In this document: in pieces, positions 540-33,991 of the stretch
Position numbering within the stretch: the first letter of the stretch is position 1
Layout of the letters: each line of letters opens with the position of its first letter
Assembly (NCBI GenBank): GCA_902794115.1
Contig: CADBGD010000006.1
Span: forward strand, 1 to 34,763
From: Oscillospiraceae bacterium
Lineage (GTDB): Bacteria > Bacillota > Clostridia > Saccharofermentanales > Saccharofermentanaceae
DNA length: 34,763 nt
Reading direction: 5' to 3'
The notes under the pieces: model-generated
Told to the model about the DNA's origin: nothing
What the model saw: the letters and a program-made list of their open reading frames with translations, nothing else
The model's database searches: none
Made by a program: the position numbers and the translations under genes

Positions 540-1754
540 TCACCCCTGTCTTTTCTTCACGAATTTGAAAAGTGAAGAATCCTGTGTCAGATGGATGTAC
601 TTCATGACCTTTTTCATTTTGTTCTTACCCATGACCCATATTCCAATTCCACAGACAGCAGATAAGACCGGCATAAAAAGGGTAGCTAACCCTTCTTTGA
701 AATTGGCCGGTTTTCCCATCACTTTGTAGAAACCATACAAGACAACGCCGCAAAAGATCGTGAAAAGGATAGAGAGTGCTATTGTTAATCTATCTACTGC
801 TTTTTTATCCCACGGCAGGCCTCCGACGACCTTGCCAGTCTGGGCATTGATCAGGATGGTGTGATGCTGTCCTTCGTACCAGAAGGTGGCAAACCATACC
901 GGGAACAAGGCATACATAATCGCATGTTTATTTATATATGTTTCGTATTCACCGCGTGTTACACGCGCATCAAATCCTCGAACGGTTTTTATCACCTGAC
1001 TATGAAATGCATTGATGCCACGGACATTTGCTGCCTGCTGGATCATCTCGTCAGAAGCATCGGCAGCATTGGAATAAAAACCGAGAAGGTAACTCTCGTT
1101 AAAAGGTTTCATATCGTTAAGATCGTAGGGCTCTAACTGCTGGGAACTCTCATCTGACAGAATTACCGATGCATCTACCGGAAGATTTCGTAGCTGCATG
1201 AAGCCCGATCTTTTGGTATGGATCGTTTCTGTTCTATCTCCACGTCTGATATGACTACAAACGTTCACGGCCTCGAAATGCCGGCCATTTACGATCTTAT
1301 AGGGGATATAGATTCCTCTGACCATATCCGGATTGATTTTCCTGATTTCTTTCGGAATGAAGGCGTGCCGCTTAAATGCCTTCCGGATCGAGGCCACAGC
1401 ATCTGCCGGTGTTGTCTGGAAAGGGAGGACGAAGTCAGGTGCTTTTTCCTTGGAAATACGGCTGAAGATCACACTCGAATTTCCGCAGTAGATACAATTG
1501 GTGGAGGCTTCGGATCCGTGGACAAAGATCTCACCGCCGCAAGACTGGCAGGTGTAAACTTTACAGGCCATGAAGTGCTTGTAGATCTCATCAGCATCTT
1601 CATTTTCCTCATTAAAATCCTGAAGGTCCGGAAACTCTTCGTGCACATCTACAGTCTGGGGATCCCAGGAACTCCCGCATGTATGGCAGACGACCTTTTG
1701 CGTCTTCGGGTCAAATATGATCTGTGCTGCACAGTTTTTACATACCGTTGCCAA
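540..1754 (-). CDS. TFIIB-type zinc-ribbon membrane protein (copy 1)
   Basis: Two zinc ribbons stand at the N-terminus: CKNC...CHTC (about residues 5-26) and CQSCGG...CIYCGN (about 69-90). A conserved middle follows, with an LPF strand, an IYIPY motif and ALFPVWFA...INAQTGKVVGG. Two membrane helices sit near the C-terminus (about 321-345 and 355-376), then a basic tail. This is the layout of clostridial proteins annotated as TFIIB-type zinc-ribbon-containing; their biochemical role is not known. The longest frame begins with GTG at 1763, but that codon overlaps the GGAGG site. The TTG at 1754 lies 8 bases beyond GGAGG and is the better start (404 aa). It is read from an extended -10 promoter at 1784 with a very short leader. 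It is homologous to the 24779-25981 product over its whole length. Confidence 0.85.
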   Translation of the reverse strand: MATVCKNCAAQIIFDPKTQKVVCHTCGSSWDPQTVDVHEEFPDLQDFNEENEDADEIYKHFMACKVYTCQSCGGEIFVHGSEASTNCIYCGNSSVIFSRISKEKAPDFVLPFQTTPADAVASIRKAFKRHAFIPKEIRKINPDMVRGIYIPYKIVNGRHFEAVNVCSHIRRGDRTETIHTKRSGFMQLRNLPVDASVILSDESSQQLEPYDLNDMKPFNESYLLGFYSNAADASDEMIQQAANVRGINAFHSQVIKTVRGFDARVTRGEYETYINKHAIMYALFPVWFATFWYEGQHHTILINAQTGKVVGGLPWDKKAVDRLTIALSILFTIFCGVVLYGFYKVMGKPANFKEGLATLFMPVLSAVCGIGIWVMGKNKMKKVMKYIHLTQDSSLFKFVKKRQG

Positions 1755-33846: not shown

Positions 33847-33890
33847 TCGGATCCCTCCTTTCTTACTATGGTATGTCCGTTTTTTCCGAT

Positions 33891-33949
33891 AAAAAATACA
33901 GCGCGCCCAGAGTCTGCACCCGTGGTGGTGCACCCCGGACTCGCTGTAT
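33891..33949 (-). ncRNA. Structured leader RNA of the thiS operon with terminator-like hairpin
   Basis: Starting a few bases after the expected transcription start, the minus strand leader forms an outer stem ATACAGCG / CGCTGTAT (33949-33942 with 33903-33896). Six T follow, counting the last paired one, so the outer stem looks like an intrinsic terminator. Inside are AGTC/GACT (33941-33938 with 33914-33911) and TGCACC-ACCACG-GGTGCA (33932-33915). The left strand has a CGGGG bulge and the right a CTGGGCG strand. GTCCG (33940-33936) can instead pair with CGGAC (33879-33875), and ATCGGA (33890-33885) with TCCGAT over the TTG start (33851-33846). No THI-box (CTGAGA, ACCTGAT) is visible. It fits a cis-regulatory RNA, perhaps the thiS-motif class I recall from comparative RNA searches. 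Confidence 0.65.
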
Positions 33950-33962
33950 ACGGTCTGCAGAT

Positions 33963-33991
33963 AGTAGACCACGAATGAAATCCGATGTCAA
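33963..33991 (-). promoter_or_regulatory. Promoter of the thiS operon
   Basis: Minus strand TTGACA (-35, 33991-33986), a 17-base spacer and TCTACT (-10, 33968-33963). It lies just upstream of the structured leader and 117 bases before the thiS start codon. TACTAT with 19-base spacing is an alternative -10. Confidence 0.6.

Follow-up and report, generated by a model that had tools for sequence, protein, structure and literature searches.

A thiS-motif leader, very probably an HMP-PP riboswitch, ahead of the thiazole operon in a rumen Clostridia lineage

Introduction

The thiS motif was described as a class by Stav et al. 2019 (PMC6429828). Atilho et al. 2019 (eLife 8:e45210, PMC6478431) then showed that it is a riboswitch for HMP-PP, a building block of vitamin B1. 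According to the text of the latter, a small aptamer lies inside an intrinsic terminator, and ligand binding leads to readthrough. The RNA described there carries a G-run at positions 24-27 with an essential G26, an essential C35 in the P2 loop, a loop (35-39) that is unpaired in all forms, a strand (46-49) that returns to pair with the G-run when the terminator forms, and six U at the end of this terminator.

Here, we analyzed the thiS leader in the window (the whole stretch of 34,763 nucleotides from an Oscillospiraceae bacterium). An initial annotation had raised a 'thiS motif' as a lead, and this lead was correct: the element is a member of that class, very probably an HMP-PP riboswitch acting as a transcriptional ON switch. 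Our own results comprise membership by sequence and structure, gene context, covariation in P2 and the terminator, and switching in silico; the ligand, the direction of control, and the kinetics would carry over by analogy from the published class.

Results

The leader lies on the minus strand between thiS and a divergent glycoside-hydrolase-like gene that runs from 34096 onward on the plus strand (Table 1). Reading along the minus strand, we found a TTGACA box, a 19-nt spacer, a TACTAT box, a few leader bases, the hairpin, six U, the ribosome-binding site AAGGAGGG, and the TTG start codon of thiS, so that promoter, U6 hairpin, and thiS operon stand in line. The attenuation proposed at the outset is supported. 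Transcription would start at about 33957-33954. The promoter had been placed about 20 bases ahead of the structure; it is indeed there, but only ~5 nt separate the end of the -10 box from the first base of P1. Promoter and structure are conserved across eight species of the genus, and the -10 boxes of leaders L020 and L024 read TATAAA and TATAAT, respectively, both at 17-nt spacing. A simple promoter/terminator scan of the kind that accepts only 16-18 nt spacers and a simple stem reported neither a promoter nor a terminator. The operon matches the known association of the class with thiazole (HET-P) genes, mostly thiS, and its closing gene encodes a protein with about equal scores for TenI (thiazole tautomerase) and ThiE, below both curated cut-offs.

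Table 1. Features of the thiS leader and operon, in window coordinates.
Feature	Position	Strand	Basis
-35 box TTGACA	33991-33986	-	sequence; same place conserved in genus relatives
-10 box TACTAT	33966-33961	-	sequence; conserved in genus; 19-nt spacer to -35
P1 5' strand GACCGU (ON state)	33955-33950	-	nascent-RNA folding; partners 33944-33942 and 33940-33938
P1 3' strand GCG-A-GUC (ON state), shares bases with terminator 5' arm	33944-33938	-	nascent-RNA folding; cross-pairing permutation
Whole intrinsic terminator hairpin (OFF state), aptamer embedded	33949-33896	-	folding; terminator-arm comparison; truncated-transcript folding
Invariant GGGG, aptamer joining region, paired in terminator	33936-33933	-	23/23 members; equals published positions 24-27
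P2 5' strand UGCACC	33932-33927	-	covariation
P2 loop ACCACG, invariant ACC	33926-33921	-	23-sequence alignment; comparison with published RNA
P2 3' strand GGUGCA	33920-33915	-	23-sequence alignment; covariation
U-run UUUUUU	33896-33891	-	sequence
thiS, TTG start, first controlled gene	33846-33655	-	PF02597; TIGR01683 over cut-off
thiF	33671-32979	-	PF00899; NF006395 and TIGR02354 over cut-off
thiG	32892-32131	-	PF05690, 337 bits
thiH	32118-30898	-	TIGR02351 over cut-off
TenI/ThiE-like gene, closes operon	30911-30348	-	PF02581

The leader folds into a stable terminator. The 81-nt region with the hairpin reached -37.1 kcal/mol (z = -4.5), and none of 200 shuffles was as stable. The structure, its location, and its terminal six T had been read correctly in the initial annotation, but what had been called multi-stem is a single long, slightly interrupted hairpin, with a second stem (P1) appearing only in an alternative fold. 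A long terminator hairpin followed by at least six U, as is typical of the class, is thus present. In the alignment of relatives, 96% of the cells in the terminator arms were paired and 13 of 15 pairs were compensated, a result that leans toward the structure because the alignment had been fitted to it.

For P2, 99.3% of cells were paired and three of the six pairs had changed on both sides (A-U/G-C/C-G, C-G/U-A, and U-A/C-G), with 30-59% of cells paired in slid-partner controls (figures that span the whole named structure). Hence, the search for covariation among the thiS leaders of relatives, suggested as a check at the outset, was positive for both P2 and the terminator arms. As in the class, P2 is common to both states. 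No sequence in the 23-member alignment departs from GGGG, ACCACC, or GGU, and the window has all three intact; its C33925 is the equivalent of the published C35 (PMC6478431). From the GGGG, exactly 18 nt (UGCACC-ACCACG-GGUGCA) lead to the end of P2, and the returning strand follows; the window thereby reproduces the G-run at 24-27, the fixed spacing of G26 and C35, the loop at 35-39, and the next strand from 46. We set membership by these positions, as named in the text of PMC6478431, and by relatives collected de novo rather than by the published consensus alignment. The second and third G of the GGGG can pair with the CC of the loop as a pseudoknot. Its letters (the G-run and the loop pyrimidines) are present and invariant in 23 of 23 sequences, and the pseudoknot gives no covariation signal because its pairs never vary.

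P1 is a local 5' hairpin, GAC-CGU/GCG-A-GUC, as indicated by folding of truncated RNAs. Its own partners gave -3.8 kcal/mol compared to -2.8 ± 0.34 kcal/mol for swapped ones, with 52 of 20,000 permutations as good. We count this as moderate support for a separate P1 that competes with the terminator base as in the class, because it was the second definition tried, chosen after the first had failed. That first candidate, a CAGA/UCUG stem enclosing P2, was energetically poor and no better than swapped partners (1190 of 5000), and was rejected. Most members show a visible 5' GUG.../...CAC hairpin, of which the P1 in the window is the counterpart.

The element accompanies thiS across the lineage. 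We detected thiS in 8 of 23 genomes of the genus, the same element preceding it in all eight, and did not find the element in the remaining 15. R1, a covariance model built from seven leaders of the lineage, matched exactly these eight thiS-bearing genomes and nothing else in a sample of 115 genomes of the family. Across 391 genomes of the class, it matched 18 others (E <= 0.01), in 17 of them directly upstream of an open reading frame that reads as ThiS (three of the 17 backed by Pfam). An exact pattern of the core gave nine matches in 398 genomes of the phylum versus one for the reversed control; two of the nine lie at contig ends of one genome and are apparently the same sequence, and wherever downstream sequence was available, a ThiS-like open reading frame came next. 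The one exception among the 18, locus L083 from genome G247, has a thiS-motif core at 1501-1564 (minus strand; 31 bits) with a poor U-run and no P1; neither thiS nor any other thi gene was recognised next to this core, which is possibly a relic or an orphan copy. In locus L110, a CTGAGA box lies ~184 bases upstream of the thiS-motif core, which could be a tandem TPP/HMP-PP arrangement.

These data bear on the notion that the leader is simply a constitutive terminator or a partial attenuator with no sensor. In its favour, every member folds at full length into a strong terminator. Against it, a terminator has no need of its loop, yet neither loop nor GGGG varies among 23 sequences that represent many families; the element also goes with thiS, and P1 is able to compete with the terminator. 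We consider a sensor-free leader very improbable.

A descendant of the thiS motif that has switched to a different ligand, such as another pyrimidine or a thiazole intermediate, is hardly credible. What speaks for it is that the loop end has changed from ACGGGU to AUCGGU in relatives within the genus, and that a GA bulge separates P2 from the 3' arm of the terminator in the window, apparently as additional nucleotides when compared with the published RNA as its text describes it. The window, however, retains ACCACCACGGGU, which is typical of the class, together with every invariant position and the setting ahead of a thiazole operon, and those who described the class report that they saw no sign of ligand drift. 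For the genus as a whole, we see a slim chance that the aptamer, with the AUCGGU loop in sister species and the GA bulge after P2, has drifted so that its affinity or ligand is no longer the same; in another genus of this family, a TPP riboswitch stands before the same gene. The HMP-PP reading of the window is retained.

Folding of the growing transcript by partition function located the switch in silico. On the numbering of the 81-nt sequence, P1 and P2 were formed while up to ~57 nt were exposed, P1 and the inner terminator coexisted at 58-60, and P1 was lost at 61-65 as the terminator closed, placing the flip at ~60-61 nt. The published RNA flips at 52-54 according to the text of PMC6478431, which corresponds to ~58-60 on our scale given a numbering offset of 6 nt. 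The alternative fold is P1, using part of the 5' arm of the terminator, together with P2 and a candidate pseudoknot. The initial annotation had envisaged a different switch, based on GTCCG/CGGAC and ATCGGA/TCCGAT pairings, the latter over the start codon, which would be occluded. Both complementary pairs do exist in the window, yet they occur together only there and in its nearest relative, L003. The sequence from the U-run to thiS is not conserved in other relatives: none of the eight other leaders checked has ATCGGA/TCCGAT, and the downstream CGGAC recurs in L020 alone. We therefore abandoned this switch, to which we attach next to no likelihood.

The chance of a TPP riboswitch at this site, such as the four that precede thiS in genus g5 of the same family over the Rfam cut-off, is vanishingly small and the idea is refuted at sequence level, since the TPP covariance model (RF00059) had no match in the window, nor on the leader at E up to 10, even though it finds the real TPP riboswitch of this genome on another contig. 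The leader has no CUGAGA box either, in agreement with the absence of TPP signatures noted at first. Other Rfam models, at gathering and permissive thresholds, yielded only chance matches on the window and leader. An Rfam scan had been put forward as a check; it disposed of TPP but could not decide membership, because 10 of 10 class-wide members tested were equally without a match in Rfam 15, which makes its silence on the window uninformative and suggests that the thiS-motif family is missing from that library. As Rfam 15 scans miss the class, such leaders will keep turning up as 'unknown attenuators'.

Within one family, thiS is found under a TPP riboswitch in one genus (L010-L014) and under the probable HMP-PP riboswitch in the genus of the window (L002-L009); the regulatory RNA ahead of thiS has been exchanged between the two. 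A further g5 locus, L015, shows in the 330 bases upstream of thiS no TPP match over the cut-off and no thiS-motif core, and has a later terminator-like hairpin. The TPP riboswitch in the genome of the window (contig C38, 19194-19301) precedes thiM-thiE-thiD-thiC, the HMP side of the pathway (L105, G000:C38:13500-19578), which gives this genome a second ThiE, one of full score, beside the TenI/ThiE-like protein of the window. In the genus, 15 of 23 genomes have no detectable thiS and no riboswitch of this kind, but nearly all retain thiC and a TPP riboswitch, suggesting salvage of thiazole.

Discussion

Taken together with the published class, the data suggest the following mode of action. Without HMP-PP, the nascent RNA would fold up as a single long terminator hairpin, and the polymerase would stop at the U-run before thiS. 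If HMP-PP were bound with the polymerase near the U-run, P1, P2, and the pseudoknot would persist and block the terminator, the ligand presumably holding them, by analogy with the class, within a short time window around the flip. Transcription could then proceed into thiSFGH and the TenI/ThiE-like gene, and the output of thiazole phosphate would be matched to the pyrimidine precursor. As the TPP switch stands before thiM-thiE-thiD-thiC, the end product would control the pyrimidine and coupling genes, with the thiazole operon responding to the pyrimidine precursor. A single genome would thus show a clean division of labour, with a TPP riboswitch for the pyrimidine and coupling genes and an HMP-PP riboswitch for the thiazole operon.

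The class is already known, and the window adds a well-supported, ordinary further example, through which this rare but validated type of riboswitch is now placed in a lineage of rumen Clostridia. With the TPP riboswitch (RF00059), it shares the control of thiamin genes, and RF00059 precedes thiS in a sister genus; its aptamer is unrelated, however, and RF00059 is absent from the thiS leader of the window. With the HMP-PP riboswitch (PMC6429828, PMC6478431), it shares the aptamer within a terminator, the invariant GGGG, the conserved loop, the U-run, the alternative fold of P1/P2 with a putative pseudoknot, and the single copy ahead of thiS and the thiazole operon. Unlike the known HMP-PP riboswitches, it comes from a rumen Clostridia lineage, has GC-rich arms and a GA bulge after P2, lacks a tandem TPP aptamer, and carries a GAC-CGU/GCG-A-GUC P1 where most class members have the GUG/CAC type.
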